Below the pieces are notes generated by a model. That model had not been told where the DNA came from and did not search any database. It saw only the letters and a list, made by a program, of their open reading frames with translations. Below, one piece after another: positions 2,555 to 60,647 of a stretch of DNA of 64,000 nt (position 1 is its first letter; each line of letters starts with the position of its first letter). Where the stretch lies: positions 62,001 through 126,000 of the forward strand of contig VWRR01000014.1 of the NCBI GenBank assembly GCA_013995675.1. The letters run 5' to 3'. The stretch is from Cyanidiococcus yangmingshanensis. Lineage: Eukaryota > Rhodophyta > Bangiophyceae > Cyanidiales > Cyanidiaceae. Position numbers and translations under genes: made by a program.

Positions 2555-5500
2555 ATGTTACCCTACGTGAAGACTGCAGTGACAGAAGTTTTGTCCGGAA
2601 ACAGTAGCCTGACGGTGTTTGCAAGGGGTCTCGACTTAGAGGCGCTCGTAGCAGTAGTTGCGGCGAATAAGCTCACTCACAGCGAAGAGAGGCCAATGCT
2701 AGCGCTGAACTTCCCCAAACCTGTCTTTCAGCGTTTCTGCCAAACTCTGGCTGCGCATCCCGCCAAGTTTCCTCTCCATCTGCTGCCAAGGCACATAAGC
2801 TCGAGTCTGTCGGCGGTTGAACGCAACGAGGTGTACCGTTGCGGTGGGGTTGTGTCCGCGACGCCGAGAACCTTCGCTGTTGATATTCTGCAAGCCATTT
2901 CGAAGCTCCGGGACCCTGCTGAGACGAATCTGAAGCCAGTCAATTACCTTGGGGTTCTCCTGTTCAACGCTCACGAGATCACGGACTGTCGTAGCGAGGC
3001 TTTTGTTGTGCGCCTTTTCCAGGAATATGTCTGCATCCGCGATTTGCAGAACACTTTTATCTTCGCCTTCAGTGATTCGGCACAAGTGCTCAGTCGTGGT
3101 TTTCATACAGCAGAGAAACTCATGCGCCTGCTTGGTCTCGAAAGATTGCTGCTTTTTCCACGATTTCACGTCGACGTTATTACGTCACTCGAATACGACC
3201 AAAATCCTTGTGATCGCCTCGAACCGACTCATCTGACAGACGCTCCTATCCAGGGAGGAACGATAGAACTTTTGGAAATACACCAACCAATGACAGCTTT
3301 GATGAATGCTATTTACGACGAAATCTGGGCACTGATACGAGTGTGTTTTTCGGAACTGAGAAAAAGTGCTCCCGGGCTGGACTTGGATGAAAGTGATCTA
3401 CGAGGTTCGCGCTCCAACACGAATCTTTTGCAGACTGCGCAGCGCCTCTCACAGGCTTGGCGTCATTTGAATTCACGGGCTAGACAGCTGTTGCTAGATA
3501 TCCAATGCCTTTATAGAATTCTCATCTGCCTCTTGAACGATGATTGCGTGACCTTTTTGAGCTATCTGGAGTCAATCAGAGAGGTTCACGGATCGGGGAG
3601 CTACTGGTTGATGATGGAACGAGCACAGAACATGTATCTTTTATCCAAGGAGCGCGTTTTTCATGGATCACTTCAGCACGAAGAGCATGTGCAAGAGGTC
3701 TTGCGATCCTTGAGCACACGTCAATCGAGCGCCAAAGTTCGCGATCTACTCGAAATTTCCAAAAAGCTGGATTTGACGCCTGAGCCAAACAGTAAATGGA
3801 TGCTCTTGCGCGATTTATTGGACGAAATAATCAATTCGATGAGAAACGCTGGAAACCCAAGTGGTAGCGCGTACTTACCAGGTTTCCGTATTCTTGTTCT
3901 CGGGAGGGAACCTAACACGATGAAGTTTCTTTCAGACTTTTTGGGCGGTGGAGAGAGCCCAAAGTGTGCTCTTCTTCGAAAATTCATCCGATACCTGGAA
4001 GTGCAGGGCGCTATGCGCAATTTGCACAGACCCAGCACATCCAGAAATCCGGAAGCTTTAGCTCTCGATGCAACTGAGAATGGGAACCAGTCGTCTTCGT
4101 CTTCGAGCTCGGATCATAGTGACGCAGTTGAAGATTCAGACAGCTGTGCGAAAGGCCAGCGAACTGGCGCCTCCTGGAGAGTGAATCCACACGAAGACTC
4201 ATCCGAAGGGCTCCGAGAAATGCCGCCCCTGGACACCGATTCGTATGCCTCGAACGATCGAGACTATCGCCCTTGGTCACAACAGGATACGAATCTGAGC
4301 ACGAATGAAAGTGCTCTTAAGTTTGAAATTTTACTCAAGGCGTACGGCAGAGGAAACGCAAATACGCGCACAGGAAATCTTATCGGGCCATCCACAGTTT
4401 TGCCGTTCCTGATGGAGATACAACCATGTGCGGTCATTTTATTGGATCCAACTCTGCAGCATGTGCGAGAAATCGAAGTGTATCAAGCTGCATATTCTAG
4501 ATATTCGAAAATTCGTATGTATACTATTTTTTATGAAGACTCCTTCGAGTATGAACAGTACCGCAAAACTGTCGCTGACGAGCAGCAGGCTTTTCAAACG
4601 TTGATTCGACACAAGGCTTCAATGGCTGTTCGACTTGATCAAAGTCTGGAACCTTCGCGTGCTGGCGATTGTTCTCGAATGATGACCCGGTGGCAACAAT
4701 CGGATTCGCACATGCTTGCGGAACAAAGTTCAGAGTCGATCTAGGCACTCACGAATTCTGGTAGATATACGTGAGTTTCGCTCATCTATTCCAGGTTCCT
4801 CTGTACCAGCATGGATTCGAACTGCGGCCACGAACACTGAAAGCTGGAGATTATGTGCTCTCTCCGGATATTTGCGTCGAACGCAAAACTATATCGGATC
4901 TGATCAGCTCACTAGCCTCCGGTCGCTTGTACATGCAATGCCAGGCTATGTGCCAAAAGTACCGTTATCCGATATTAATGATTGAATTAAGCGAAGACGA
5001 TGTTACGGGACAGATGTCAACCTTCGAAGGACTGGGTTTATACGTATCTTACTATTCTGATGAAACATCCATGCAGTACAAGCATGCGAACGGGATAGGA
5101 AAACTGTGCCTGCTCACCATACATTTTCCACGTTTACGATTGATCTGGTGTCGTGGTCCGCAGGCAGCGGCGGAAGCATTCCAGACACTGAAACACGGAG
5201 AGGTTGAACCGGAAGAAGAAGCATCTGCAGACCCCGCAGTGGAGGCGAAAGATGGCACAAACAATCCGGTGGGCACCGATAACATGTCTATGATGAATCC
5301 GAGAGACAACTTCGCTCTTCGCCCATTCGACATGCTTCGCTGTTTGCCCGCTGTGGAGAATGCAAATGTCTTTGCTCTTATGCGCCATTTTCGGAATTTA
5401 TCGGAATTCGCAAACGCAGAAACAGAGGATATCGCAGGGATTCTCGGGTCAGCGCTTGCCAAGCGCATTACGTCGTTCATTTCCCTAGAGTTCTCCGGAC

Positions 5501-5556
5501 CGCTAACGATGTCTAACCTCGAGAATCAAGTAGCTCATGAATTTAATAAATCCTGA
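2555..5556 (+). CDS. ERCC4: XPF/Rad1 structure-specific endonuclease
   Basis: XPF pairs with ERCC1 to cut DNA 5' of lesions in nucleotide excision repair and in interstrand crosslink repair. Residues 1-700 (2555-4744) match the helicase-like N-terminal half, with a Ser/Asp/Glu-rich linker near 4090-4270. The nuclease domain follows: VDIREFR, then LKAGDYVL, then VERKTISDLI, which carries the catalytic ERKxxxD signature. The C-terminus (about 5310-5500) has tandem helix-hairpin-helix sequence. The length of about 1000 residues is normal. The reading frame changes by +1 twice: between about 4716 and 4744, where the first frame ends in TAG, and at about 4785-4797 between FRSSIP and LYQHGFEL. Both fall at the entrance to the nuclease domain, and the middle frame encodes the conserved VDIREFR. 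Identity is certain; whether the frame changes are real is not. Confidence 0.92.
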
Positions 5557-5569
5557 ACCCCGAGTGTTC

Positions 5570-12915: not shown

Positions 12916-12921
12916 GGCAGA

Positions 12922-18242: not shown

Positions 18243-19834
18243 CTATCGGGATGGTAACGTTGGTGTCCGAACGGGGCTCTGATTCGTCCCTGCTACGTCC
18301 TCACGAGGGGTTTCGCTCGTGCTGGGGTACGACGGCGGTAGATACTCTCCTGGAGGCACACCTCCTAGCTGATTAATCGCATTATAGTGTACTACTCTGC
18401 CTTGATATCGAAATGGTGTTCTGTAGACTGAGTACGAGCCTCGATTCCCAAATTCACGCTTGTAATCGATTTTCAAATACGCATTTTCGAAATGCGGGGT
18501 TGCGGGAACAAACGTCCCCGATCGATATTGCTCGATTAGCTCGATCACGAGCTTTCTCAGACACAAAGACAATAAAAGCAAAGCCTCGCGATGGCCGATA
18601 ATCAACCTTGTGGACAGGTCCAAAGCGGGAAAACTCCGCACGTATGAGCTCCTCTGTGCTTCCTGGAGGAAGGCCACCAACCCATATCGTGCAAGCGAAT
18701 GGCAAATCATCCGAAGCCTTCACCGACGATGCCATTCCCATATTTGAAGATGCCATCGCAGCATTCATTCCATACATCGGCTGAGCCGGTACGAAGGGCT
18801 GTGCACCGTAGCGTCCATGCATCGCCCGCATTGCATCACCGGCCACCAGAGGTTGTGGGCCAGGAGCACCGACTAGGGGATACGGGAGTACAGGAACCAT
18901 ATTGGAGCGATGAAAGTTACCAAAGTAAGGCATTGGCTGCGGCGATGGCACGAATGAATAGGGCAGCGCCCCTTGCGATGCGGCCGGACGACCCTCCTCG
19001 TGCTCGAAGGAGCCACTTGTTATCATCGGATGAACAAAGTTCTCGTTCAAAGGATAGTCAGCTCGCGAAGGCAGCGGGAGCCAGTGCAAGATATTGCTAT
19101 CCAGGTACCTGAGCAAGTCCTGCTGGATCCAGATGTGGCTCGTGCTCAGACCATTCGTCGAGAGCCTTGCGGCTTCCCCCTCTTCACCAGCAGGGAAATG
19201 TCGCAGTTTCAGTCGAAATATCTGAATGAACGGGAACATTGCTAGGTATTTCAATGCGGCGTTGGAGGGTGCTTCTGCACCCGATGCGGCGCGCGGCGTA
19301 TCTGAGACGTGTATAGAGCCCACGATAACAACCTGAACGTCCAGTGAATGCCCTTCTGAAGCATCCGCAAGAGTGACCACATCTAAATCGCAAGAACTGA
19401 TTCTCATGTCGCTGTACACTGCCGGGAGCGAGTTCCGAATCACTGCCTGCAGCTGCCCTATTGCCTCATCGTCAGCCCGTTGATTCGAATCGGACTTGAA
19501 CTCCGCGAGACGAAATTCTGACGAAGGACTCTGAGTTTCATCGGCTTCCAGAAAAAGGATACTTCATACCGTTCCGGCTGAATGAAGCAGCATTGCCAAG
19601 GCCCTCCTCCGTAAACCCTGCCACGTCCTGTTGCGACTCTCCAGCGTGATCACAAACCCGAATCGGAATCCACGGTAACGTTACTCCGCGGAAAACACGC
19701 TCGCATGTGAGCTGGCCGGAGGCACTGAGATAGAATCGATGACAACTTTCCAATTGCCTGCTCATTGCCGCGTAATAGGTCTGCAGGAAGGCTCCAACCT
19801 GCCTTTTGCAGGTAACACGAGCTTCCTCACCCAT
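18243..19834 (-). CDS. G3BP-like RNA-binding protein (NTF2 domain plus RRM)
   Basis: The N-terminal part (19834 to about 19100) matches an NTF2-like domain: VGAFLQTYYAAMSRQLESCH and FYLSASG near the start, and LDVQVVIVGSIH, FIQIFRLKLR and IWIQQDLLRYLDS toward its end. A Pro/Met/Ala-rich linker follows. An RRM then starts with CTIWVGGLPPGSTEELIRAE (RNP2) and has RGFAFIVFVSEKA (RNP1), closing with FENAYLKIDYKRE. NTF2-linker-RRM order is that of G3BP/Bre5-type proteins, which organise stress granules and bind ubiquitin proteases. The frame changes by +1 twice: near 19558 after SRNGMK, and near 18553 inside the second RRM helix (SEK then LVIELIEQYR). Both fall where the protein should be continuous. 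Confidence 0.85.
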
Positions 19835-27843: not shown

Positions 27844-28328
27844 ATAACCAGGGGGAGAATCTGAGTGTGAAAGCTTTTTGAACATGGTACGCATCTGCAG
27901 GATGCGGCGCGATCGATCAAGCTTCTTTGCGGACCAGGTGGGCACCAACACTTCGGTGCAGCAGGCTCGACATAGCCTCTGGCGCTTTGCACCTGATCGA
28001 CGAAAACTAGGGGTTGATGCTCCGAGCTGGTCTTTGTTCGCTTTGGGTGCGCCTGCTCGTACACGTCGGCTAGCGCTTTAGCCCTGGAGAAAAATGTTCC
28101 GAGGTTCGCGATCCCCGCTCTATCCTGCATATGGCGGACAGCACGCTGTCATAAAGAATTGCACTAGGAAAGGATTACCCGGCAAAGCTTCTTTTCGCGA
28201 TGTTAGCGCTCTTTCAACTGTTGCCTGTATCCTCCCTGCAGGTCTCGAGTCGTACAAAAACAGTGAACCTTTCGTTGAAATCGTCCTGGAGTTTCCATTA
28301 CGGAGTTTAGACCAATTTTTGTGTCCGT
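27844..28328. other. Convergent intergenic region
   Basis: Lies between the stops of the CSP41b-like gene and the membrane protein gene. Frames on both strands lack features. Confidence 0.35.
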
Positions 28329-29125: not shown

Positions 29126-29174
29126 TACTAGAAAGTCTCTCGAATTTAGAGAAGTAAAACTATGAGTGGTTATG

Positions 29175-39000: not shown

Positions 39001-42000
39001 CTGATCCATTCCTGGTTGTGCGCTTTGGCTCTGCACGAACGTACGGCACCAGACTCTGCCATCAAACGTGCGACCCGAGCTTCTTTGAGAGGCTGTGCGT
39101 AGGTCCAGTGCATCTCCATCATAACGAGGTACTTCCACCAGTGTCAGTGAAGGTCTTCGATTGGGACGCTGACCCGGAGACATTTGATCCACGCAAGCTC
39201 GAAAAAGCGCAATACCTATGCAGAACCGACTGTTGATCTGAAAGGCTTGACGTCAGCGGAGCCGACCTGGTTCGATATGTTCATCTCGAATCCAGTGGTG
39301 CTTCATGGTTCAATGCTGGCAAGTTTCTCGTTGCGGAGCGCGACTGTAGAGGTTCCGCACTGGCCTCTGACCCGCTCCGCCGAGGAGAGCACCCCAAATG
39401 TCGCTCAATATCATGCGACAACACGGCTGATACCGGTCAGCAATCACGATGTACCAGCACCTGAGGCGCGCCACGCTCACGCACCAATATATGCAGGAAT
39501 GCCCACATGGATTCTTCCACGAGAATGTGAGGCGAATACATGCCAGGCCAATCGCTACCTTCTCGTGAGTCTCCTGTCCGTGCATCACCTCGGTTTGCAC
39601 GAGTTTGGCCTCGATCCGAGTGCAGAATCGCTCACATTGCGCCTGTACTTGAACATTCGCGATGGGACATATCGATCGGCGCCCTTCCGTGTCAGCAATG
39701 GAACGGTCTATTCCGCTGATCGAAATACCGTGATTGACACGATTCTCATGAGGTTACCCTCCAGCTTAGACAACCTTACATCCTTGCACATCATCCTGGA
39801 GAGCGCAGACGGAGGCAAGTTCTTTGCGAGTGCCAATATTTCTCCAGAAGAGTGGGCCGAAAAGCAGCTGCTTACCGGCGGGCTTCAGCAGTACGGTTTA
39901 GAATCCCTCGAGAATGCAATGCGAACCCGCAATGCGAAACGCAAACGGGGCAAACCAGCTGAACACACGAAGCCAACACCAACGCCATTCGACGCCGAGC
40001 GGGATCATAAGCTCGTGGATCTGGCAACGGTACGTCGACGGCTTCACGAACACTGGCACCATGATATTCGCGGCTCTGCGCTTGCCCTCTGGGCAGCGCT
40101 TGTCAATTACCTCGTTGAAACCGCTCCAGAGTTCGCGCTCCGATTCGGTATGGAGGAGACGGAATTTCCACCGTCACTCTTGACTCCATGGCTGCTGCGC
40201 TTTTTCCGTCTTGTTCATCATCGCGGCCTCGTGGCAGCTCTGGAGCACTATGAGCGGGCTTCACACTCTGAGCATCATGGGGAGCATGCACTCCGTCATG
40301 GCAGTGCATCCCATGAGCATCACAAAATCACACCGCAGCATATTCATGAAGAACTTGAGAAGCATCTCCGGTCGTGTACGATTTTCAGCGAAACTCTTCT
40401 CCGACACGGCTTGACTCGGCATAGACGGCACGGTATACACCTATTTTCCAAGACGCAACGGCACCAGAGTGCAGGATCCAAACCAACGCTCGCGTCAAGG
40501 ACCCGGTCTGAATCTACACCTAAGGCGATGCTTCGAATGTGGTTTTCTCGTCACAAGCAAAACACAAAAGCAGCTCCGCAACAAACTCCTAGCACTGCAC
40601 GCGTTTCATCCTTGAGCACTGACCCTGCTCCAGAGACTGAAACCAGAGCGAGCATGAACAACGACTCATCAAAAGAGCGACAGCCAGAAGTATCCGGGAA
40701 GGAGAGGCAACCTTCGCAAGGGCTGGCGCGCAAGTCATTGTCAGCGGAAACCACCGTCGCGGAGCTTGCCGCTGTCGCTGCCGAGAGAACTTCGTCGGCA
40801 TTTCTCAAGTCTAACTGGATTCCAACACTTCGTCGCCGAGGTCGAATGCGAACGCGCAGGCACGAGGCAGAGGACCGTCTCTCACTGTTGTTCCACGAAT
40901 CGAAGCGGTACCAGGACCCAGTGCCAGTGGGCAAATTGGCACTAGATCTTCGTCTCCTGGAGGCAGACCCCGGCATGACTGCTGAGGATGCGAGCACCTC
41001 TGCATCACCACTGCGTGTAGAGCGAGTACAGGATGTTCAGCAGTTCCGGGCGGAGCACCACAAGTTTCTGCGCGACCGATTTCAACCACGCATGGATGTG
41101 ATTGTACGGCTTCATGTCTTCAATGCTCGTGGTCTTCGAGCCCCCAGCGGTGACCCCAACATCTACCTGAAGATTGAACTCAACAGAGGGGAGCAGACCC
41201 AGTCAACCAAGAGATCGCCGGTGCGACACTCCTTGCATCCAGATCTGTTCCAGTCTTTTGAGTTTACCGGCGTGCGCTTACCTGGATCTAGTCTCGTTAT
41301 TAGAGTCAAGCATTTCTCTGGACCAGAATTTGAGGTTCCGAATGCAGCGGTTCTCCTTCCCAGGTACGAAAACTGGACATTTGGCCCCTTTGTCCACCAG
41401 GCTATCAGCAAGGATCTACGGATCGACCTCGTGCGAACTCGAGTCGGCCACGGTGTACTTCTCGGGGAAACGGAGATTGACCTCGATCAGCGATGGTATT
41501 CTGAGAACGATTCCTTTTCGCGACTGGAGCCCCCGATTGAGACGCGGCGACTGTTCGTCCCGAATCGAGTAATTCACCGCGGAGAGATAACTCTTCGACT
41601 GGAGCTGTTAAGTGCAGCGGAGGCGGCGACTCGCCCTTTCCGTCGTTTGGAGCCACCAGCGCCGCGTCAGTACGAGCTTCGTCTTGTGATATGGCGAGTA
41701 ATGGGCTGCAAAAAGGAGGGAACCGAAAAACCAAATCAGAAACTTGCGAGTGACGATGCATACGGATCAGCGGATGCCGACAGTGGTAACTTGGCGCCGC
41801 AGGCGAATTCCGGCTCCAGTCTGAATGCCAGCGCCGACGCAACGGTGCCACTGCAGGATCTTGAAGTGCATGCTCAGCTTGGAAACGATATCTCTTCAGA
41901 GATGCGCACTTCAGTCGTCCACAACTGTGATGACGGTAGTGCCAATTTTAACTACCGCCTGATTTGGCGGCCGCTACATTGGCCAAACCCTGACCTTGTA

Positions 42001-42549
42001 CCCAGATTGCGACTTCATGTCTGGGACGTCCGCAAGCCGAGTGGATTTCCCCTGATTGGCCAACTGGTTCCATCGGAACCAGAGCTGCTGGCAACAGTCA
42101 CACTGGATCTGAGCTCGATCTTCGAGGAGGCCCGCCACAGCCATGAGCGGATTCATCGACCACGACAGTGGATCTTGATGCATCGTGTGGGAACCGCGTG
42201 TGCTACCACCGTGCCTCGTATTGCGGTTTCTCTAGATCTTCTGAGCAAAGAACAAGCAATGCAGCATCCCGAGGGCTCCCAAATTGGTCAGAGTGGCCTA
42301 CCGGAACCCTTGCAGCCTGTGCCCTTTTCGGCATTTGCCCCGCAGAGATACGTTCGCTATCGAATCGCCCGCCTGTGGCAGGATGGGTTCTGGTACGCTG
42401 TACAAGTGGCGCTTCTAATTCCAGGGGGAATCGCTTTGCTCAAAACTCTTGCTTCGATTCCCCTTTTACTGTACCTGTTTGGAGCTGTGACAGGCACGCT
42501 GCTCGTGCTGCGAATGCGTCGAATCGAGCGAGAGCTTGAATTCGTTTGA
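36007..42549 (+). CDS. Ferlin-like multi-C2-domain, C-terminally anchored protein
   Basis: About 2180 residues from ATG 36007. Several C2-like beta-sandwich stretches are visible, for example ITVRRLKLEVRDSHGALLGS near 36330, ILFIRGTKR at 37750, CNIIRCRNLPALDPTGFSDP near 38950, VIVRLHVFNARGLRAPSGDP near 41100 with GDPNIYLKIEL, and YELRLVIWRVMGCKKEG near 41670. The C-terminus has one membrane segment (GGIALLKTLASIPLLLYLFG) and a short tail. Serial C2 domains with a C-terminal anchor define ferlins, calcium-dependent membrane fusion and repair proteins. A His-rich stretch lies at 40200-40330. The frame steps +1 three times, near 37835-37850, 38128-38146 and 39215-39235; the downstream 3.3 kb is unbroken. 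Confidence 0.85.
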
Positions 42550-43627: not shown

Positions 43628-45670
43628 ATGTCCCATGGAGAACAAACGAATACTTTCCACAGCAGAGACTGGCTTCATCGAGTTGGAGCGGTATCATACG
43701 TGGACAGGATGCAGGAGCTTCGCTCGCGATTTCCGCCTCGCTTGAGTCCGCCTATTGAATTGCTGACTCTAGACCTGGTGCGTACGTACGGTCGGGTATC
43801 TTCCTCGTTTCGGTATGATCCCGCACTAAACCCACGAAGAACGTTAACGAGGCCTGATCAGCCACGCTATAACGAGGGCTATGATAACGAAAATCACGAC
43901 TATATTCTTCGTGTACACGACTGTATTCGTTCACCGAACGGCGACGTCTATGAAGTGCTCGACCTTTTAGGTGTGGGTACTTTTGGCCAGGTGGTTAAGT
44001 GCATCCAAGTCGGGCGTAGCCAGGCCGTGGCACTGAAAGTGGTGAAGAACCAAGAGGCGTATTTGCGCCAGGCTTTGATGGAGGTCTACGTGCTGCAGAT
44101 GCTCCACCGGACTTTTCCGGCAGAGCGTGTGCAGCATATTGTTCGATTGCTGCAACACTTTCAATATCATCACCATCTATGCCTCGTTCTTGAGAAACTA
44201 GGTATGTCGCTATTTGATCTGCTCAAGCAAAATCGTTTTCGAGGCCTCGGTTTGTTCGTGGTTCGATCAGTGCTTCAGCAACTACTCCCGACCCTGGATT
44301 TGCTGACACAAGCGGGCATCATCCACTGCGACCTGAAACCCGAGAATCTCTTGCTATGTCGAAATGATCGTATAGAAGTGAAACTCATCGATTTCGGCTC
44401 GGCTTGCCAGGAGAATCACGTAGTCTACTCGTATGTCCAGTCGCGCTTCTACCGTTCACCTGAGGTCCTACTAGGCCTTCCATATGGTACGAAAATTGAT
44501 ATTTGGTCTCTGGGGTGCATCGTCGGAGAGCTCTTTCTCGGTCTGCCTCTCTTTCCTGGACATGATGATCAAAATATGGTTCAGCGCATGGTCGATATGC
44601 TCGGTATGCCTCCCGCGTGGATGATTCAGAGCGGGAAGCAGAGCCATCGCTTCTTTCTGAGCGGAAATGTTCGGGGTATGAATCCAGAAGCGCTCCACGG
44701 AAGCGGGCCACTACCATGGAAACAATACTTTAAGCATCGAAAACTAGAGGATATTATCTTGAAATATCCGATGAAGGCGAATGTCGATGAGCGTGAGGAA
44801 CTTGCTCAGCGTTGGGCGTTGCTCAGTCTCCTTCGAGGTATGTTGGAATGGGATCCATCTCGTCGGTGGACCAGCACAGAGTGTTTACTTCATCCGTTTG
44901 TGTGTGGTCGGGGTATGGGAGAGAAGGAGATCTGGCTACCGCCTCGATTTCGATCCTCGAACATCGATATTCGTCTGTGTTCGCGCGATCTCACTGCACC
45001 GAATGAGGGAGAAGCTGGTCTAGCAGTCGACGTGCCGCTGGATTCCGATCCAAAAGCGAGTGCCATGTCCTGGCACATGCTGTCAAGTAGCGCTCCGGAT
45101 CGAGTTCTACAAGAGGATGCTGCCGGCACATCGGAAGGGATGCGATTGGACGTGCAACCTTCTGGTAAGGAGACTCGGCCTGAGGTGGCCGCACCAGCTA
45201 CAGCGACTTTGTCGTTGTGGGAGACGGGTCCATCCGTGGGCCTTCCGCAACAACGACAGCAGCAGCAACCGATGCGAGATGTTCCGTATCCTTCTCGGAG
45301 ACGGACGGAGATGCGCGCGAATCCGGGAATGGATCCAGTTCCTGAAGCATCTTCGGCTGCGGCGGAGGCACATGATCCAGCTGCTGCCGCGATCCTCAGC
45401 GATGCCGCGTGGAATCCGTTTCCAATAGACGACGCCGTTGAACTTGTAAGTGCCCAGAGAATGGAACAGCAAACCGATATGACCATGGATCCGTTCATTG
45501 CTGAAGAGGATCATGATATCGTACCTCCAGCAGTGCCCAAGGCGCCAACAACCGCCCTGGATTCGAGCGCCTTAATTGCATCAAGTGTACCAGAACGGGG
45601 AGTTGTCTCCAGAAACGTTCGGGTTTGGGACGCCAACAGACCAAACCGCTCCCGATTGTCGCGACCCTAA
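43628..45670 (+). CDS. DYRK-family protein kinase (YAK1/DYRK-like)
   Basis: A complete frame of 680 residues from ATG 43628. Kinase domain at about residues 105-425: VLDLLGVGTFGQVVKCIQVG (Gly loop), ALKVVKNQEAYLRQALMEV (catalytic Lys and Glu), IIHCDLKPENLLL (HCD form of the HRD loop, typical of DYRKs), LIDFGSACQ, and the activation loop YSYVQSRFYRSPEVLLGLPY whose YxY pair is autophosphorylated on the second Tyr in this family. DYRKs govern growth arrest, stress response and splicing. The C-terminal 250 residues are low-complexity and rich in Ala, Pro and Gln. Its TAA stop (45668-45670) overlaps the stop of UTP25 on the other strand. Confidence 0.95.
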   Translation: MSHGEQTNTFHSRDWLHRVGAVSYVDRMQELRSRFPPRLSPPIELLTLDLVRTYGRVSSSFRYDPALNPRRTLTRPDQPRYNEGYDNENHDYILRVHDCIRSPNGDVYEVLDLLGVGTFGQVVKCIQVGRSQAVALKVVKNQEAYLRQALMEVYVLQMLHRTFPAERVQHIVRLLQHFQYHHHLCLVLEKLGMSLFDLLKQNRFRGLGLFVVRSVLQQLLPTLDLLTQAGIIHCDLKPENLLLCRNDRIEVKLIDFGSACQENHVVYSYVQSRFYRSPEVLLGLPYGTKIDIWSLGCIVGELFLGLPLFPGHDDQNMVQRMVDMLGMPPAWMIQSGKQSHRFFLSGNVRGMNPEALHGSGPLPWKQYFKHRKLEDIILKYPMKANVDEREELAQRWALLSLLRGMLEWDPSRRWTSTECLLHPFVCGRGMGEKEIWLPPRFRSSNIDIRLCSRDLTAPNEGEAGLAVDVPLDSDPKASAMSWHMLSSSAPDRVLQEDAAGTSEGMRLDVQPSGKETRPEVAAPATATLSLWETGPSVGLPQQRQQQQPMRDVPYPSRRRTEMRANPGMDPVPEASSAAAEAHDPAAAAILSDAAWNPFPIDDAVELVSAQRMEQQTDMTMDPFIAEEDHDIVPPAVPKAPTTALDSSALIASSVPERGVVSRNVRVWDANRPNRSRLSRP

Positions 45671-47862
45671 GGACGGGGCTCCTCTACCGCAGAGAACTCA
45701 AACTCTCGGCGCAGTAAATTGGTGGCAGTGTACGAAAAGTTTCGCGACCCAATGATCCGATGGAGGGCGAGGGCGTCGTTTGGCAGGACGAAAAGCGTGT
45801 ATGCCTGGCGGAAACTCGATTCCGAGGCCTCTAGACTCTCGACGATCTCAGTGTAGAATGGCGCATACTGCGGAACACTGTAGAAGAAGACACTGCGCGC
45901 GCCCCGGAGACGGTACCGACGATAGAAATGAAACCGCTCCGTGATTAGCAGGAAGCGAACTCGCCCTTCGAAGAAAGCCAGACGGTGTCTGCTAATGTCT
46001 TGGGGTTTGGTATATTCGGAGCACGCCGCATAGCGAATTGCCGAGGGTGGAAACACGCTCTTCTCCGCGTATTTGCGGAAGAGATTGCGCACCCGAACAA
46101 AATCAAAGTACGAAGGAATGCAGAGCAAGATATGCGTCTGCGTGCTTTTGACTACTTTCGGCAACCAACTCTGGGAAAACTCTTGAAAACGAAGCTCTTC
46201 CACTTGGGCGCTCGTGAACGTCGTCGTGCTCTGTCCCAACGGGTCGCTTATCCCGACGTTGGGTACCGCGACTCGCCGGAAAACATGGCGAACCCGAACT
46301 CGAGGATGATCTGCTTTGGTATGTTCGATCACAGGTATTAAGTCCGAGAGCACCCCTGGGTATCGAGTGCCAAGTATCTTCAGCGTACCACTAACGTTCT
46401 GGAGGCCGTCAGGTCTTGCCACACGAAACCAGGCGTGCATCTGGGGTGCGTCGAATGCAGACAGTATGATGTCTTGTCGATAGGCAGCCGCGTTGCCGTC
46501 GAGAAACCGTTGCTCCACCCTCGAAAAGTCGGTTTTCTTTGGAATGTGCGTCGGCATACGATTGACAGCCTCCTGAAAGAGTTGCAGTGCATAGTCCCAG
46601 TTTTGCATGAGAATGACGTGTGCGCGCAGAATCGCCGCGATTTCAATGCTGGAAAGTGGATCGGCTGCACCACTATCGGGACCGCCTTTGTCAGGATCAT
46701 CGAGCACTCGCTGCAACCCAAGCGGGGATGCTATGATAATGTCCGAATCGAGAAAATCGGCAAAAAAATGCACTGATCTTCGAGCTAGACGAATACCGAG
46801 GCGAAAATCATCGTCTATGTTGCCCTTAAAAGTGGCTCGATAATCACGGGGTCGTGATCTCCAGTGCCGCGCTCGCGGCGTGTCGGTACCTGGGTCTGGT
46901 GACGGCTCCACTGGCGGCACAATCAAAGAGGTTGGCTCTTCGGATACGGTACCATCATCCGAGCTAGGGCCGAATTCATCTTCGAAACGCTGGGCGTTGC
47001 CTACTTGACGAGGTTCCAAGCATGCAAGCATCGCATGAATAAACGCGTATGCAACGTGTCGCGTGGGTGCCAATAGCAGCGTACGGGCACGATTCAGACC
47101 GCGATCACGATACTGATCCCAGTCATCATCTACTATCGATGCGTTTGCTCGTTGAGCGAGCTCAACATCATGATGGTGCTCGTGAGCCTGCGCTCGGATG
47201 ATGTGCGAGCAGATAAAAGCCGCAAGTACCTGCAACAAAAGCTGCTCCTCATCAACACTCGCCATGCAGCCATACAGAATATCTGCCTTGGTTGCAAGTG
47301 CTCTACCAAAGAGCAGCCCGCGGCGCATTAGAGCGTCGGCGGATGCATAGCGAAAAGCCGGCGCCGAGGAGCCAAGCATACTCGCCAGACGTCTCTGCAG
47401 CGCTGGAACTGGTGCCACGATATCAGCCACGTGGTGGATACAGGCTCTGGCCTCCTCGTAGCGCCTTTCCGTGCGTTCCACCTCTATATGGGAGACGCAG
47501 ACATCGATCGCCTCAGGATGGCTTTTCGACCGCGCACTTGATGCTGCGTTCGCGTTCAAGTCGGGCACGATTTCCGCACACTTTTGCCAACGAAGTGAGA
47601 CTTCCGAATCAAGGCCCCACGTTGGTGTGGACAAGTGCAGTCGCTCGGTCTCTAGGATAAAAAGCTCCGGCGAGTCTTTTGCAAGCGTTCGCGTGTCGGT
47701 CTGACAGGATAGGGCTCCGTCTCTTACTTGGGACGCGTCCATAACCCCAGGAGCGGCGCACTCCGCTGATCCGTTGTCAACCTGCGTCTCGTCCGCTGAG
47801 GGCTGCTCGGCAGGCAGTGGCCAGTGCGTCCGTGTAAAAACTCTTCGACGTTTCTTTTCCAT
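45667..47862 (-). CDS. UTP25: UTP25, U3 snoRNA-associated small-subunit processome protein
   Basis: A complete frame of about 731 residues from ATG 47862 (MEKKRRRVFTRTHWPLPAEQ); the frame is open 51 codons further to a GTG. UTP25 (DEF in animals) is a nucleolar factor needed for early 18S rRNA processing, with a degenerate RNA-helicase fold. Family features: TRHVAYAFIHAML, FFADFLDSDIIIASPLGLQR, IEIAAILRAHVILMQNWDYA, ARPDGLQNVSGTLKILGTRY, ILLCIPSYFDFVRVRNLFRK, FFEGRVRFLLITERFHFYRR, YRLRGARSVFFYSVPQYAPF and FYTEIVESLEASESS. The N-terminal 150 residues are unconserved. It converges on the DYRK gene with overlapping stop codons. Confidence 0.92.
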   Translation of the reverse strand: MEKKRRRVFTRTHWPLPAEQPSADETQVDNGSAECAAPGVMDASQVRDGALSCQTDTRTLAKDSPELFILETERLHLSTPTWGLDSEVSLRWQKCAEIVPDLNANAASSARSKSHPEAIDVCVSHIEVERTERRYEEARACIHHVADIVAPVPALQRRLASMLGSSAPAFRYASADALMRRGLLFGRALATKADILYGCMASVDEEQLLLQVLAAFICSHIIRAQAHEHHHDVELAQRANASIVDDDWDQYRDRGLNRARTLLLAPTRHVAYAFIHAMLACLEPRQVGNAQRFEDEFGPSSDDGTVSEEPTSLIVPPVEPSPDPGTDTPRARHWRSRPRDYRATFKGNIDDDFRLGIRLARRSVHFFADFLDSDIIIASPLGLQRVLDDPDKGGPDSGAADPLSSIEIAAILRAHVILMQNWDYALQLFQEAVNRMPTHIPKKTDFSRVEQRFLDGNAAAYRQDIILSAFDAPQMHAWFRVARPDGLQNVSGTLKILGTRYPGVLSDLIPVIEHTKADHPRVRVRHVFRRVAVPNVGISDPLGQSTTTFTSAQVEELRFQEFSQSWLPKVVKSTQTHILLCIPSYFDFVRVRNLFRKYAEKSVFPPSAIRYAACSEYTKPQDISRHRLAFFEGRVRFLLITERFHFYRRYRLRGARSVFFYSVPQYAPFYTEIVESLEASESSFRQAYTLFVLPNDALALHRIIGSRNFSYTATNLLRREFEFSAVEEPRP

Positions 47863-48262
47863 TACTATATGCTCGAAACCTTCGCCACCGATCCAAAACT
47901 TTTTGCTTGTTGAAAGAGAACAACCTTCTAACCCAGAATGTCCAATGCTTGCCAACGTCGCCGGATCCAGGGTCGTTGCGGCGATCACCAGAACGAGATC
48001 GAGCAACGTTGCCACTATCTATGTTGAGGATAGGAAAGAATCGCCACAACAAAACTAGTCATAAATGGTGACGGAACGACATGGCGACCAGGTTTTGTCC
48101 ATTGGCGATGGGATTTTGTGAAAATGCGGGAGTAGCAGCTAAAAATAGAAGAATCGATGCTGCTGCCATTCGAGGTGGTTCTCCCTAAAGTCTGCCTGTG
48201 TGTGTTTCTCAAATGAGAGACGTCCTTGACGTCCCTCCCATCTTTTGAAAACCGCATTCAGG

Positions 48263-51139: not shown

Positions 51140-51179
<40 letters not shown>

Positions 51180-52137: not shown

Positions 52138-54336
52138 TCAGAGGCCACGATCGACACTGGAGAGGCGCTCGGTAAGGGAGCGCGGCCGGGCGGCAAGCAT
52201 GGCACTCGCTTCGGCGACATGTTGTGCTCGTGCGATCCGTTCGCTCTCGAAGCGCTCCTCCTCTTCCCGTGCTCTGCGCTGCTGCATTTCGCGCTGAAGA
52301 CGTGCTTGCTCTCTCTGGGCAAACGAGGCCGCAGCGGCCACAAGGCGCTCGCGTTGAACGCGACGGTACAAGCTGACTTGTTCTCCAAGCCGCGATATGT
52401 TGCGCAGAAAATACTCTTCTGGGCGCTTACCCGTCCGTGTTTCCAAAACATCCACCATACCAATGTCATCGACAAGAAATTCCATGTCATTCGTGTTGAT
52501 GAACTCGCCATCAACCGCCGGCATCAAAGACGGAGCAACAGAGGCCGTTGCCGCAATAGCCCGCTGCTTCAATAGTGCTCGGTATTTGAGGCAGAGCAAT
52601 GCGGCGAGCACTTGCTCACTGCCCTGATCGGAGTCATCTCCGAGCTCCATGTACTGTGCCAGTTTCTGAACATCAATCGTTCGATAGATGCGAAGATAGG
52701 AGCTCAGTTGAGCTGGGAGGCCGGATTCACTTTGAGCAACATGGCGGAGGAATTCCTCGCGACAGGTAGTCGCTATTGAGGGCGAGGCGAATTTCGGACA
52801 GGCGTGGTTGTAGAGTTCCTCGAAAGCATTCAAATCGCCCTGTCGTATCCGCGTAATGCGGTCGCCCAGCTTCTCTCGCAACCAGTTGTTCATGGAGTCA
52901 TCGAGACGATTCTGACCGAGACACTGAGCGAGCGCAAGAATTGCCAGCATTTGGTCAATACGTTTGTTCACATGCTCATATTGGAACGAACGCGTGTGTA
53001 TGTGTCGTGTCCGGGTAATATGTAAGATTGTGGGTTGTAGAGAGCGAATCGCATCGTCGTAGCGCCGCAACATCAAAGCGCTGAAGCCGATGTAGTAATA
53101 GAGCGCGACATGGCACGCCGTTACATGGGTATGAAGTCTTAAGCTCAAATCCGGTGCTGGCACCGCCCCGCTCCCGACACTGGTCATCTCACCGCTGCCG
53201 CCAACGCTGCTAAGCGTGTTACGCACATTCTGTTGAAATGTGTTTGCGAGCCCGCCGCCTGATTCGATTTCGAACAAAGAGGGAGGTTCGAGCGAAGAGA
53301 GTGCCATACAGAAATCGCCAGTGGCGCTCTGCAAACGCAACAATCCAATCATAGCAAAGTAGCCCAAATAGCGGTAGACCAAGGAGTGAACCGCCAGTTG
53401 ACGCGTTTGTGCATCCACAGGGCTGTTCTCATCGATATCAGCAGCGCTCTCGTCGTCGTTCTCGTCATCATCGTCATCATCGTCCTCGAGTGCGTTTTCG
53501 TCGTCGTTGTCGTTACCAACGGTGCCCTCTATGCCGTTTGTCTTCCCAAATGCATGTTCGGCAGTCGGAAGCACGGGTTCAGTTGTTAATGCGTCGTTCG
53601 CTGTGGATGCAGGCGGACGAATAGCAGACGCATCCGCGGGCGATGGCGATGCGCCTTCCCCCGACCTGGGACGACTCATCGAGCCCCGCAACCAATCGAC
53701 AACACCACTCTTTTCAACCAGTGCATGGAGAACTTCAAGTGTTGTGCGCACATTCCAGGCTGAGTCGGTGTCGAGCTCAACCGCGTCATCGCCTGATCGT
53801 CCGTCATGGCCACGCGCTCTGTACTGATGATACTCCTCGAACTGGTAGAGAAACTCATCGATCAGATCCCAGAGCCAGGAGGGTGGCAATGCAACGTCCC
53901 GAAGATGCCCATGCAAGAAGTGATCAAAGATCGCCAAATAGTTCATCCAAGACTCAGTGCGTTGAACAGGTGTCGGATGCAGCCTGGTGTGCACGTGTCG
54001 AAAGCCAAGCTCCTGGTAGAGCAGGACAAAGAGATCGAGATTGGTCCAGCTTCGCAACTGCGCCGATTCAGCTGCGTCTACCTCTCCCGAGGCGTGCCTC
54101 TCCCGAGCAACAGCTTCGGAACTCGTCAAAAGACTTCGCACAGTGGGAGCACTAGGCAGCACGCTGCTTTTGTAGAAGCGCTCAGCGATGCGCGTGAAAC
54201 CGCTCTCATAGAGACCGTGCACCGCAACGCTGTCACCTTCGATAAACTTGCCGTAAAAGTTCAGTATATATTGCGCAACTTGATCAGGAACAGAGTAATC
54301 CACCGTGTTGGTCGCAGATTCCACCATTGTGATCAT
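52138..54336 (-). CDS. EIF3L: Translation initiation factor 3 subunit L (eIF3l)
   Basis: A complete frame of 732 residues. eIF3l is a PCI-domain subunit of the eIF3 scaffold that recruits mRNA and the ternary complex to the 40S subunit. Family features: VPDQVAQYILNFYGKFIEG, the GLYESGFTRIAERFYKSS helix, LDLFVLLYQELGFRHVHTRL, SWMNYLAIFDHFL, VYRYLGYFAMIGLLRLQSAT, HVTACHVALYYYIGFSALML, RRYDDAIRSLQPTILHITRT and LAILALAQCLGQNRLDDSMN. A linker at about residues 235-305 holds a long Asp/Glu run (about 53450-53500). The C-terminal 80 residues form an Arg/Glu-rich coiled coil (QREQARLQREMQQRR). Divergent from eIF3a; the interval between the two ATGs holds the CACGTG palindrome. Confidence 0.93.
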   Translation of the reverse strand: MITMVESATNTVDYSVPDQVAQYILNFYGKFIEGDSVAVHGLYESGFTRIAERFYKSSVLPSAPTVRSLLTSSEAVARERHASGEVDAAESAQLRSWTNLDLFVLLYQELGFRHVHTRLHPTPVQRTESWMNYLAIFDHFLHGHLRDVALPPSWLWDLIDEFLYQFEEYHQYRARGHDGRSGDDAVELDTDSAWNVRTTLEVLHALVEKSGVVDWLRGSMSRPRSGEGASPSPADASAIRPPASTANDALTTEPVLPTAEHAFGKTNGIEGTVGNDNDDENALEDDDDDDDENDDESAADIDENSPVDAQTRQLAVHSLVYRYLGYFAMIGLLRLQSATGDFCMALSSLEPPSLFEIESGGGLANTFQQNVRNTLSSVGGSGEMTSVGSGAVPAPDLSLRLHTHVTACHVALYYYIGFSALMLRRYDDAIRSLQPTILHITRTRHIHTRSFQYEHVNKRIDQMLAILALAQCLGQNRLDDSMNNWLREKLGDRITRIRQGDLNAFEELYNHACPKFASPSIATTCREEFLRHVAQSESGLPAQLSSYLRIYRTIDVQKLAQYMELGDDSDQGSEQVLAALLCLKYRALLKQRAIAATASVAPSLMPAVDGEFINTNDMEFLVDDIGMVDVLETRTGKRPEEYFLRNISRLGEQVSLYRRVQRERLVAAAASFAQREQARLQREMQQRRAREEEERFESERIARAQHVAEASAMLAARPRSLTERLSSVDRGL

Positions 54337-54875: not shown

Positions 54876-57800
54876 ATGAGTGGAGCTCACCAGGGTAGGC
54901 ACGGCGGTATGGGCCGCGGTAGTGGTGGTGGTGGTTTTGGTGGATCGCGTGGACGGGGTCAACGTTTTGGATCGCGCTATGGACGAGCGATTTTGAAGCC
55001 CGAAAACGCATTGAATCGCGCCGAGCAGCTTCTCGCTGTGGGACAAAAGTCTGCTGCACACGAATCTTTGTACACGTTGATTACTGAACATACGCCGATT
55101 AACGTGGGCGGTCGGGAGGCACAGGCGATTGTGGCCCAAGCACAGGCTCAAGCGCAAGCAGCAGCACAGGTGGCTGCTAGCGCGGCCGCTGCTGCTCAGG
55201 AGCAGGACGAGGGGAGTGCGCGGAGCACCGCAGCTGCCGCTGCCGCTGCTGCCGCCGCTGCTGCCGCTGCAGCGAACGCCATCCAGTCTTCAACCTCTGG
55301 CTGGAGCAAAGTGTACGAGGGTATCATGCTGAGGCTGGTGGAACTGAGCGTGGAGTTGCGACGACCGCTTGCACTCAAAGAGTCGCTCCATCGATATCGT
55401 GCTCTTTGTGGAGTAGCCAATACGGCCTCTCTGGAGACAGTGGTCTTCCATGCCGTAGAGTGCACGGAGGCGGCCGTGGATGCAGCGAGGTCATTGGCGC
55501 TGGAGAGTTTTCAAGCGAATACGGTTTCTCAGGGCACCGTTCCAGGCGTCGCTGGAGAGACGGAAATGGCCGAGAGTGAAGTGACACCAGAAGAGACCGA
55601 AGACAGTGACTGCAGAAGAGGTCACAGAAGGCGATGAACGCTGGCACCGCAACCGACGAGGACATGCAACCCGTCTGGGGTGCCGAAGTGCCCGAAACGC
55701 TGCTTCTCGAGGCGAGTGGTATGCTTGCTTCGCGCACAAGAATCGAACGACAGCTGCTTGCGCCAACGCTTATGTTTGCCTGGGAAGTTTTTCGAACGTC
55801 GCTGGATATCCTCAAAAATAACCTGAAGGTTGAGAAGACATACCATGAAGTTGCGGAACGAGCGTTCCACTTCACGGCCAAGTTTAATCGGACAACAGAA
55901 TTTCGGCGGTTGTGCGATATTCTTCGTCAGCACATGGTTGCCCTCATGCGTACGATCATGCGCTCGAGCCCGAGCGAAATCGAGCAGGCTCACTGGGCAA
56001 CGATCCAACGCATGCTACAGATACGTTTTCTGCAGGCTGATCAAGGAATGGCAACCGGTCACTGGCAGGAGGCGTACCGCACCATGGAAGATATTCACGA
56101 CCTCGTGCGGATATGCGCACGCAGGTCGGAGCCGAGCGTTTCTAGTTGGTTACTACGAACGACTCGCCTCGGTCTTTGGGATATCGGATAACCATCTTCT
56201 ACATGCTTTGGCGTTGTATCAACTGTATCAAGTTCATCGCGGGACGGAGGCAGAGAAGGTGACCAGTGATTCGAGCCTGGATGTGCGTGATATGCAAGGG
56301 GTTCGTGACCTGGATTCGTCGACACGAACTGCAGTGCGATTGGTGTTGGCGACGCTATGCGTTCCACCGGTTGAGCTCTCCGGACAAGGCAGTATCATGG
56401 AAGTCTTCGCTGATGCAGCAACCTTGTCTAGTATAGAGCAGGCCCGCCAGAACAAAATGTTAGCTCTACTAGATTGGTCGAATGCAAATTCACCAGGAGC
56501 GGCAATGAAATGGAACCGCATGGTATCGCACCCGAGTAGAGCATGGCTCATTGAGCAGATCATATTGAGTGATGCTGATGAACTATGCCCGGCAGCATTA
56601 AGAAACTTGCTATATGAATTTGTGGAACCCTCACTGCTTCACTGGCGGCGGCCCGGAAAGGCTCTAGCACGCACACCGTGGTCCCTTGCGTCGACAGTTC
56701 AGCAGTGGTTGAAGGCAACCTGTGACTTGGTGGGCAACGAAGCTCCCTTGTTGGACGTGAAACCAGCAATCAGTGGCGACGGTGGCAGCCTTATGGATGG
56801 CGCGGAAACTCCACCGGTGAGCGCCTCCACACCAGGGCAGAGCCCAGGAAACTTGGATAGTTATCTGATGCCGCTGAGTCGAGCCGTCATTGCAGAACTG
56901 TTGTTGCGTATTGCGCAGCATTACGAGACTTTTCTGTTATCGGAGCTCCGCGCTATGATGAGTTTCTTGCCACCGGAACAGACCCAGTTGATTGCGTTGG
57001 AGTATATAAGAGCAGGGCTCGTTCCTTTCCGTTTAGACTTTCGAGATGGAGTTCTGCGCTACGTTCGCCCGGTCATTGAACAGGATGACCTCGGTGATGT
57101 CCTTGCACGCCTTGCGACGCGATTGCACCTGGCTGCAACAATCATTGCGGAGCGTACTCCCGTTGCCGACGAGAATGAGGTTCATGTTTTGAATGTGAAA
57201 GGGTCGGCCCTTCCATTCGAGCATTTGGAGAGCGAGCAGACACGACGCCTCACCCAGTTGGAGGGCATGAATGCCTTCCTCAAGAAGCTGGACGAACTAG
57301 CTCTGCAGATAGAGCAGGACGAAAAGCGGCAAGCGCAGTTGGAGGCAGCGCGACTAGCAGAAGAAGAGAAACGTCGCATTGCTGAAGAGACTCGCCGCCG
57401 AGAGCTTGAAATGATCCGTAAGGAAATGGAAGAGAAAGAACAGGCCGAGCTGCGTCGCCTGAAGGCCGAGATGGAGGCACGCAAGCGTGCGGGCCTTTCA
57501 GCTACAGTCGCAGCGGCTGGTTTGTCTCTTCCTCCCATGGGCGGAGGGATGACCACACCTTCTGCCACTAGTGCGGCAGGAGTGGTTACACCTGGGATGG
57601 AGAATGTCGCGGGTATGACACCGGCGGGCAGCGCATGGGGCCGTGGCGGTCTCAGCGCCTCGGCACTGCTCTCAGGGGCTGGCTCGGCTCTGGCACCACC
57701 TGGCGCAACTGGCGACCTGGCGTTGGGAGCTGGTCTCGAAACCGCGGGCCATGTGGCTGTCGGTGCAGATGCAATGGATTCGGAAGGCGATCGGCTGAGT

Positions 57801-58816
57801 CGTCAGGAGCTGCTCCTGCAACAACAGCAAGAGCGGATCACCCAACGCAAGGCGTTGGAACAGAAAGTCCTCAACCTAGCTCGTCGCATGGATTACATGG
57901 ATCGCGCGCTTCATGAGAAGCAAGCCTCTCACCTCGAGCAAGTACACGCTGATATGGTTCGTGAACTGATTGAGCAACGGCGCGCTGCTGCAGAGCGTCG
58001 CCTGAGTCAGCTCCGAGAGCAGTGCGAAAATGATTTGGCAAACCGATCGCGGCTCTCTGCAGTGTTTACGAACCCACATTACCAACGAGCATTAGAGCAA
58101 GTCCGTCAAGAGGCAATCGCACGAGCGAATGCTGAATGGGAACAACGTCAACGGCCCTCAGCACCGAAACAGAAGGAACGAGATGCAGCGGCGGACAAGG
58201 ACACGCCCGACATGGGTGAAGCGAGTGCCATCGCTGCGCCCGCCAGAGATGCAAAAGCAAATGGTGCGACAGCAGATGTGCCGAAGACAGCTGATGCGGA
58301 ACCAGAACAGGCACAACCTGCGATGGTGCCTCCCACGAAGAAAACGACGCCCCCTGCAACAGTGTCGCTGGCCAGCGCTGTCGAAACGGGAAGGTGCAGG
58401 CGACGGTTCGAATACAGTACTGATCAGGAACGCACCCGTGGTCCAAACTTCAGATTCGATAGAAACGTCAAAGAGCATTAGACCTCCTCTGGTAGCAAGA
58501 GAGGCTAATGACACATCTGGCGCTCCGGTGCCTACCGAGATACCACCATCCAACGGTGCCTCTATGGCACCTTCGATGACACCTGCAGGGCCGCCGGCAA
58601 GCACTAGACCGACTGCAATGGACGGATCCAGTACGAAACGCGGCTACATCCCGCCACACCTTCGAAGACAGCAACCGCGCCCAATGACAACAGGAGGACA
58701 CGGACAAGAGCGGCTCACCGGACACTGCGGCTGGCGCTCGCCGTGGATTCGGCTTTACAAGCGCAAACGCGCGGCCATTCTTCCTAAATATGAATGTTTC
58801 CCGATCGTCACTTTAA
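54876..58816 (+). CDS. EIF3A: Translation initiation factor 3 subunit A (eIF3a)
   Basis: About 1312 residues from ATG 54876. eIF3a is the largest eIF3 scaffold subunit. Landmarks: KPENALNRAEQLLAVGQKSA, IMLRLVELSVELRRPL, FAWEVFRTSLDILKNNLKVE, REHHEVAERAFHF-type helix read here as YHEVAERAFHFTAKFNRTTE, LLHALALYQLYQVHRG, the PCI/spectrin region to VLNVKGSALPFEHL, then a long Glu/Arg coiled coil (EEEKRRIAEETRRRELEMIR). The C-terminus has RGYIPPHLRRQQPRP. A Gly/Arg-rich start and a 14-residue-plus Ala run near 55220-55275 are unusual. The frame changes by +1 five times: near 55605 and 55633 in an acidic linker (a single -1 would also fit there), 56131-56149 (EPS then LVGYYERL, fixed by conserved sequence), 58390 and 58692. 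The final frame ends at 58816, overlapping the eIF2-beta stop. Confidence 0.93.
55218..55275 (+). repeat. GCN repeat encoding poly-Ala in eIF3a
   Basis: A run of mixed GCA/GCT/GCC/GCG codons giving uninterrupted Ala residues, preceded by a Gln/Ala-rich stretch at 55135-55195. Confidence 0.8.
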
Positions 58817-59808
58817 GCAGCATCGCGTCGAAGTGATCTCCGCTCGGTCTGCGCCATGAATCCCTGTCGAATGGGCGCCACTGAACGTGACGAACCGCAA
58901 TTTTCGCACTTCATAAAGTACAGCCGCGTGTGGGCGTCCCGCATCAACACGGTCTCGGGGCTCCTGCAACTGGCACACATCACGTACTCTCGAATGTAAC
59001 GCCGCAGAACTCCCTCGAACCCCGCTGGCTGAAACCTTCCTTTCAAGACGAAGCGCGCATTCTCCTGCATGTTGCCTGTCGTGCCGAGCTCAGCGGCCAT
59101 ATAGGCGGCCAGATGCTCCGGCTGTCTCCGCAATGACTGGCATATCTCTCCGAAATTAAGGAAAACAGTCCGTTTGGAGCCCTCTCGGGCAATTTGCGGG
59201 GGCCTCAAAGATAGACGACGGCGACCCTCGACGTTGCCACCGAGGCCGGGATGCCTCCCGTGCAGCATGTCGAAAATACGACGCAGCAGCTCCTCGTACG
59301 TGTAGTCACGATCTGTGCCCTGCCACGGCTCAGATAATTCGCCGTGATTCTCTTGAGCGAGCACGTTGGACTCTGGTCCTTGGTCCAAGGCCGAGTTGGA
59401 CGAAGCATCTTGAGCTGCTGCGAGCGCTTCGTCTGACTCGATCTGGAAACGTACGTGCCGTTGTTCACTCGTTGGCTCTTGACGTTCGGACGGCGTCGCC
59501 GTACCCTCCAAAACGGGCGCCTGCACTTGATCTCCACCGCTTGTACCAAGCTCAAGTGGTTTCTTTTTCTTCTTTTTCTTCATTGAGGGATCGAAAAGAA
59601 GCGGCTCAGTGATACTCAGCGGGACTTCGTCCGGGACGGCGTCTCCGTGTTCACGAGCCGGCCGTTCGGGCTCCGATCCTGACGCTCCAAGCCCATCTGT
59701 TCGAGGTGTCTCTCTTTCCCTCAGGAGACGACATGCACAAGAGGATGAGCAGATAATCAGCACAAATATGGAGACGAACCCGTTAGAGACAAGTCTTCGC
59801 GAGCACAC
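58813..59808 (-). CDS. EIF2S2: Translation initiation factor eIF2 subunit beta
   Basis: The frame is open from 59808 (GTG) to a TAA at 58813, 331 codons. eIF2-beta is part of the eIF2 ternary complex that brings initiator tRNA. Features: ITEPLLFDPSMKKKKKKKP (one Lys box, family members often have three), YTYEELLRRIFDML, VFLNFGEICQSLRRQPEHLA, YMAAELGTTGNMQENARFVL, KGRFQPAGFEGVLRRYIREY and the C4 finger CASCRSPETVL...CENCGSSRSV. The only internal ATG (59583) is the Met of the Lys box, so the true start must lie upstream. A GTGAGT donor-like sequence at 59808 suggests a first exon on the minus strand above 59810, joined by an intron ending near 59720. That exon would be antisense to the TPR gene and is unproven. 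Confidence 0.92.
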   Translation of the reverse strand: MCSRRLVSNGFVSIFVLIICSSSCACRLLRERETPRTDGLGASGSEPERPAREHGDAVPDEVPLSITEPLLFDPSMKKKKKKKPLELGTSGGDQVQAPVLEGTATPSERQEPTSEQRHVRFQIESDEALAAAQDASSNSALDQGPESNVLAQENHGELSEPWQGTDRDYTYEELLRRIFDMLHGRHPGLGGNVEGRRRLSLRPPQIAREGSKRTVFLNFGEICQSLRRQPEHLAAYMAAELGTTGNMQENARFVLKGRFQPAGFEGVLRRYIREYVMCASCRSPETVLMRDAHTRLYFMKCENCGSSRSVAPIRQGFMAQTERRSLRRDAA

Positions 59809-60001
59809 TCACCCTGGACACCCGAACGCGGCTGCAGCGGCCTGGCCAACGCGACGCGCGGGGACGCCCGGGCTAGATACGTCCGCGCCTGATGGTCTCG
59901 GCACTCCGTCCGGGTCCCATGTTCAAACTTGCGTTTTGATCGGAAAGAGTACGTTCTGGAACAGCTGAGATGCTGGATTGAGATCATTTTCATGTTCGGA
60001 A

Positions 60002-60647
60002 ATGATGGAATCATGCGAATGGAGAGAGGGCTGGCAGGAAGCCGCCTCTTTCGATGAGCTACTCGAAAAGACAGCCTATACGAACTCGGAAACGGGTGGC
60101 GTCGACATCTCGAAGCTGGCCACAGAGTTAGACCTTGAGTTTGATTTTCATCCTCTGTATCATGAAAAAGATTCACTCACAAGATGAAGAAGAGGCGGAA
60201 TCGGCACGCGTAAGTGGAAATGAAGCTTATCAAGCGCGTTTTCTCTACGTCGCCTGGCAAGAGTACACGCGAGCACTCCTGTGCAGTCACCAGGACGCCA
60301 CCGCATATGCGAACCGAGCACAGGTGGGTCTGCAGCTGGCACGATGTCACCGCGAACGATCTCCTTCTGTTGCTGACGACTGGCTTTGCCAAGTGCTTCG
60401 AGATACGCAACAGGCGTGGCTGTGTCTCGGTGGCGTACTCACATCAGCGGGCCAACCTGATTGGACATTCATACCCGAGCCAAAGGCTGTGAAAAGCCCC
60501 AGACAAGTCACTTTGCCATGGAAGGTCTGCTTGCGATTTGCGGATGCTGCACGCAGGCTGGGGCGTCTCGAGGAGGCCCGAGAGGCAATGGCGGCCGCCG
60601 GACGTCTCAAGCCTCGACCGCCTGGAAAAAGCACCCACTCAACGTAG
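60002..60647 (+). CDS. TPR-repeat protein
   Basis: From ATG 60002 the first frame encodes an acidic N-terminus (SFDELLEKTAYTNSETGGVD, ATELDLEFDFHPLYHEKDS) and ends at TGA 60185-60187. One base further on, from about 60175, the frame reads QDEEEAESARVSGNEAYQAR, a TPR-like pair (YVAWQEYTRALLCSHQDATA with YANRA), a second helical pair (LRDTQQAWLCLGGV) and a third near the end (FADAARRLGRLEEAREAMAA). GNEAY...EYTRAL...AYANRA is the classic start of co-chaperone TPR domains. The +1 step lies at 60172-60184. Which chaperone or complex it serves is unknown. Confidence 0.65.

Follow-up and report, generated by a model that had tools for sequence, protein, structure and literature searches.

Frame changes in the genes of the window

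In the red alga Cyanidiococcus yangmingshanensis, several conserved protein genes change reading frame within a stretch of 64,000 nucleotides, hereafter the window, which corresponds to positions 62001-126000 of contig 6 (530,042 bases) in a genome of 12,072,675 bases and 20 contigs (guanine-cytosine content 53.6% over 356 kb). The initial annotation had proposed 17 frame-change sites in seven genes and regarded all frame changes as +1, that is, as one extra base in the direction of the gene. Ten sites were placed by homology: two in an XPF/ERCC4-like gene (2555..5556, plus strand), three in a gene for a ferlin-like C2 protein (36007..42549, plus strand) and five in eIF3a (54876..58816, plus strand). 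For this purpose, we used a frame-aware aligner with an equal charge for +1 and -1 changes and compared each gene with intact relatives, labelled P0070 and P0071 for XPF, P0074 and P0075 for ferlin, and P0002, P0003 and P0004 for eIF3a. The frame changes are really present in the sequence, and relative to the closest intact relatives all ten placed breaks are +1, a uniformity that would arise by chance with a two-sided probability of about 0.002.

The XPF gene is read in three frames, with the ERCC4 domain in its final piece: Its two +1 breaks fall at 4724 and 4800 against P0070 (60% identity) and at 4739 and 4800 against P0071 (53% identity), the brackets being 4722-4735 and 4796-4801. The ferlin gene, in which C2 domains are present and which emerged as four pieces from a whole-genome search, carries +1 breaks at 37810, 38135 and 39231 against P0074 and at 37819, 38135 and 39231 against P0075 (brackets about 37808-37819, 38135-38139 and 39230-39231); P0074 could be aligned over 2177 of 2177 residues with exactly three +1 changes and zero stops. 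In eIF3a, which matched solved eIF3a chains, the eIF3a_PCI_TPR-like domain is divided among three pieces, and comparison with P0002 yields +1 breaks at 55605, 55642, 56123, 58368 (58368-58375) and 58687. The suggestion that the first two of these could be one -1 is borne out by P0003 and P0004, which are more remote relatives and with which only a +1 at 56129 is seen beyond the pair, whereas P0002 resolves the pair into two +1 changes. P0002, P0070, P0071, P0074 and P0075 are each a single protein that can be aligned over nearly its full length without extra bases. Residue conservation resumes past every placed break, although it is weak in the eIF3a segment that separates breaks four and five; therefore, these genes are not old pseudogenes. 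The ferlin and XPF alignments moreover cross the breaks without added residues and thus only one base is extra, which argues against very short introns or gene junctions having been mistaken for frame changes.

The surroundings of the breaks bear on two explanations in which the extra bases belong to the living genome. Past the placed sites, the old frame would continue for 5, 62, 10, 60, 23, 35, 50, 21, 2 and 2 codons before meeting a stop (mean 27, expected 22.5), and no site lies at the stop itself. No 5-mer occurs at more than three of the ten placed sites, and no 7-mer at more than four of 50 insertion sites from the wider sample described below. CAG stands near seven of the ten placed sites as a raw count, and TGCAG within 20 bases of nine of the 50 insertion sites, where 3.4 were expected (contigs 6 and 1; many words were tested and the figure is uncorrected). 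Stop distances and word counts therefore exclude a stop-triggered mechanism for the ten sites as well as a common heptamer, in keeping with the initial annotation, which had seen no shared heptamer. If the bases were present in DNA and messenger RNA, the ribosome would have to skip one base at each site, either in a programmed manner or by a Euplotes-like non-triplet decoding. Such skipping would account for a strong +1 bias in conserved genes whose protein conservation is kept past each break, but it is very improbable given that the ten breaks lie off stop codons and share no motif, that up to five of them occur in one essential gene (eIF3a), and that the -1 breaks found outside the window would demand a second mechanism. 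Removal of the bases from RNA would produce the same +1 bias and the same apparent conservation over the breaks; without a motif, and with base addition also demanded by the genes with -1 breaks, its chances are slimmer still.

The remaining four genes with proposed frame changes are less conclusive. For the CSP41b-like epimerase gene (26759..27843, plus strand) and an RRM gene resembling G3BP (18243..19834, minus strand), support for the putative breaks is weaker than for XPF, eIF3a and ferlin. The former has a three-frame reading with +1 changes near 27043 and 27157, positions taken from the earlier reading, and its joined frames give one Epimerase domain (residues 39-254) with 62.9 bits as compared to 39.3 for the last piece alone. 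In the latter, the codon model introduced below calls both breaks as insertions, near 18510 and 19552, and the RRM_1 match gives weak support: with the frames joined, it extends to model position 62 instead of 55. The frame changes proposed at 28780 and 28597 in a putative membrane protein gene (28120..29200, minus strand) come from a three-frame reading only, and a Pfam search with the single pieces and the frame-joined protein returned no match. The same type of reading underlies the single change proposed near 60178 in a TPR-like gene (60135..60647, plus strand), for which a domain search with the frame-joined protein gave only TPR matches below threshold. Three genes that had been described as unbroken are confirmed as such, each holding its domains within a single open frame: the phosphofructokinase-family gene PFP (32108..33937, minus strand) with its PFK domain, UTP25 (45667..48015, minus strand) with its UTP25 domains, and eIF3l of the Paf67 family (52138..54336, minus strand) with its Paf67 domain. 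A Homeobox_KN (TALE) gene at 29175-30407 on the minus strand is unbroken, too.

Frame changes beyond the window

The claim that all frame changes are +1 stands for the ten placed sites of the window and fails outside it, on contigs 6 and 1, where CPSF73 and TCP1-alpha carry -1 breaks. CPSF73 aligns without gaps to solved CPSF3 across its -1 break, which lies at a run of six T, and TCP1-alpha aligns without gaps to solved TCP1-alpha across one -1 break and has two further +1 breaks. Both breaks are located inside single conserved domains, which again argues against junctions and introns. For two other genes, a RibF-like -1 candidate on contig 1 and a fused pseudouridine glycosidase/kinase gene, the matches from PDB searches did not span the break.

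Whole-genome searches for three families, chaperonin (PF00118), HSP70 (PF00012) and class I transfer RNA (tRNA) synthetase (PF00133), yielded 24 loci, whose break directions were derived by hand from the coordinates. Fourteen of them are whole in one frame and six are split with a frame change. TCP1-alpha on contig 1 is split by +1, +1 and -1, in agreement with the PDB-based directions. An HSP70 gene on contig 7 is split by a +1, read from the sequence at the break, which lies inside what we take to be the INEPTA...LAYGLDKA motif. An HSP70-like gene on contig 1 has one +1 and one change that is net -1 or +2, and three tRNA synthetase loci (one on contig 12, two on contig 5) are split by net +1 each. 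As for the other loci, a chaperonin gene on contig 12 is interrupted by a gap of some 290 bases that may represent an intron; a second one, on contig 18, keeps one frame with stops inside; a tRNA synthetase gene on contig 1 (376532-378394) keeps one frame with one in-frame TAA, which could reflect several breaks summing to three; and one tRNA synthetase locus gave a partial match only. True recent mutations that broke the genes in the sequenced clone would likewise predict random sites and both directions. However, a simultaneous loss of eIF3a, XPF, HSP70, TCP1-alpha and CPSF73 is hardly possible, nor is that of six among the 24 members found for the three housekeeping families, and this explanation is left with almost no plausibility.

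A codon-periodicity model extended the counts. Its training sequence and its target were the same 344 kb of contigs 6, 1 and 12, window included, in which it called 42 insertions and 14 deletions (33 and 12 on contig 6, 9 and 2 on contig 1, none on contig 12). The model is without direction bias of its own: Among 81 planted insertions 68 kept their direction and one came back reversed, among 81 planted deletions 64 kept theirs and none came back reversed, and of the remaining planted changes 17 were missed while 12 gave several events; 27 unmodified control genes with short flanks produced two false calls, one in each direction. Three calls did not withstand closer inspection. A 'deletion' at 15472 was rejected by the list of open reading frames, in which 15238-16311 is an unbroken frame, and the calls at 55611 and 58386 were rejected as deletions by P0002 homology, which turns them into +1 pairs or a +1.

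For a combined count, the ten sites placed by homology were added to the model calls, the false call at 15472 was dropped and the two others were replaced; this gave 50 insertions and 11 deletions in 175.6 kb of decoded genes, with 39 of 119 genes hit (binomial p 5e-7; decoded genes below 300 bases excluded). This count combines evidence of two kinds; in addition, the three homology genes of the window had been chosen for being broken. The strands are alike, with 29 insertions and five deletions on the plus strand and 21 and six on the minus strand. As a control, the model was run on 114 kb of Escherichia coli K-12, where insertions (14) did not exceed deletions (18). In the wider sample, the insertion direction is a bias and not a rule.

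Origin of the extra bases

The extra bases are very probably assembly errors that stem from an insertion-prone long-read consensus and have no counterpart in the living genome, a reading that is unproven and that we draw from the assembled sequence. A long-read consensus tending to insert bases would interrupt genes by single extra bases, which accurate reads would be expected to lack. Insertions and deletions both occur, housekeeping families are hit on several contigs, and the intact relatives of XPF, eIF3a and ferlin do not have the extra bases. Consensus error is thus the best supported explanation, albeit indirectly, as it covers the direction, the scatter, the lack of a motif, the deletion minority and the indifference to gene function. 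Of the two readings offered by the initial annotation, insertion-biased consensus error is retained without its 'only +1' part; programmed +1 frameshifting or RNA base removal loses ground because -1 breaks exist, the placed sites are not at stops and no common motif was found.

Several observations weigh against consensus error, and they begin with the model itself. Its raw event rate in the alga, 56 in about 174 kb, is not above the 32 in 114 kb of E. coli, which is explained by the ability of the model to join neighbouring genes. For the same reason, 39 of 119 is to be taken as a maximum, and homology carries the direction bias as much as the model does. After possible gene junctions are discarded, the ratio of insertions to deletions is 38:13 within 30 bases (p 0.0006), 28:11 within 60 bases (p 0.009) and 18:11 within 100 bases (p 0.26), where significance is lost. 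Correspondingly, 17 of the 56 algal events are possible junctions within 60 bases and 27 within 100, and in E. coli the distance to an annotated coding-sequence end is at most 20 bases for 25 of the 32 events and at most 100 for 31, with one event inside gloB; under a differently trained model, eight of 29 E. coli events failed the 60-base junction filter. Introns, too, exist, as the genus has about 36 (PMC9812998), and the gap in the chaperonin gene on contig 12 could be one. Nevertheless, given the XPF, ferlin, CPSF73 and TCP1-alpha alignments, junctions or very short introns are a highly unlikely source of the frame changes.

Further points against consensus error come from the distribution of the breaks. 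The homopolymer enrichment that is common in long-read errors is absent for the insertions: nine of the 50 insertion sites have a run of at least four equal bases no farther than 12 bases away, as compared to a fraction of 0.19 for random positions. The 40 kb sample of contig 12 contains zero events, and clustering of the breaks is mild (15 pairs less than 500 bases apart versus 8 expected, p 0.006), partly owing to unequal ascertainment. Across repeat copies aligned over 6.9 kb, or 13.9 kb when both members are counted, single-base indels are absent, whereas the rate of 0.35 per kb from the model predicts about 4.8 (probability of none 0.008); a lower or uneven rate would make this lack less remarkable. 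The copies comprise a contig 11 inverted repeat (bases 1572-6000 of 99001-105000, and within 183636-189635; 4.4 kb, 99.1% identity) that holds a chaperonin gene and differs by 33 substitutions, one 6-base gap and zero single-base indels, and two gapless inverted repeats of contig 12 (within 200001-240000) with 1.9 kb (99.9%) and 0.6 kb (99.5%). Finally, two published Cyanidiococcus assemblies state correction by Illumina/Pilon (PMC9812998, PMC13353863) and a third was built from HiFi reads (PMC13200283), so that such errors should be rare in those assemblies. The 92.4% complete BUSCOs given for 8.1.23 F7 (PMC9812998) are difficult to reconcile with breaks in at least a quarter of the genes, unless the breaks were bridged in the gene models or the sequence analysed here is another assembly or release. 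In protein searches with about 8000 candidates scored each, no intact same-species XPF, eIF3a or ferlin was among the matches listed. All the same, it is very doubtful that the genome itself has roughly one surplus base in every 3 kb of nuclear coding sequence, which would call for highly efficient, motif-free maintenance of frame by the ribosome or for a two-way RNA correction.

Programmed +1 frameshifting is known from single genes such as antizyme and Ty1. These share the +1 direction with the alga, in which many genes are affected at several sites per gene and without a common slippery sequence. In Euplotes, many conserved nuclear genes likewise require +1 (or +2) ribosomal frameshifting, but the shift occurs at internal stops (PMC10235951), whereas in the alga all ten placed sites lie off stop codons and -1 breaks occur. 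A further parallel is a case of gene-fragmenting long-read errors, in which single-base indels break conserved genes whose relatives are intact and insertions are likewise untied to a particular homopolymer (PMC12007338); homopolymer deletions dominate in that Nanopore case, whereas insertions dominate in the alga and homopolymers are not enriched nearby. Judged by titles and the beginnings of abstracts, a literature search for Cyanidioschyzon merolae with ribosomal frameshifting returned nothing on frameshifting in algae, and one for Cyanidiophyceae frameshifts with PacBio found none. If the extra bases are artefacts, many gene models are truncated or split (39 of 119 as the upper figure, at least six of 24 family members), and any gene loss, pseudogene, bicistronic transcript or recoding event deduced from the assembly needs to be re-examined. 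If they are true, the triplet rule would be broken in a plant-lineage nucleus.

Non-coding sequence

Contig 6 starts with clean AATGGGGGG telomere units, which are too few to judge indels by; this unit has been published for Cyanidiococcus yangmingshanensis and is common to Cyanidioschyzon merolae (PMC9812998; PMC13353863). A whole-genome search with two near-universal 18S ribosomal RNA patterns and up to two mismatches gave no match, and ribosomal DNA may be absent from this genome copy. Rfam at gathering thresholds found nothing in the 344 kb. Positions 200001-240000 of contig 12 contain little decoded coding sequence and no called frame breaks. A search for tRNA genes returned 16 matches.

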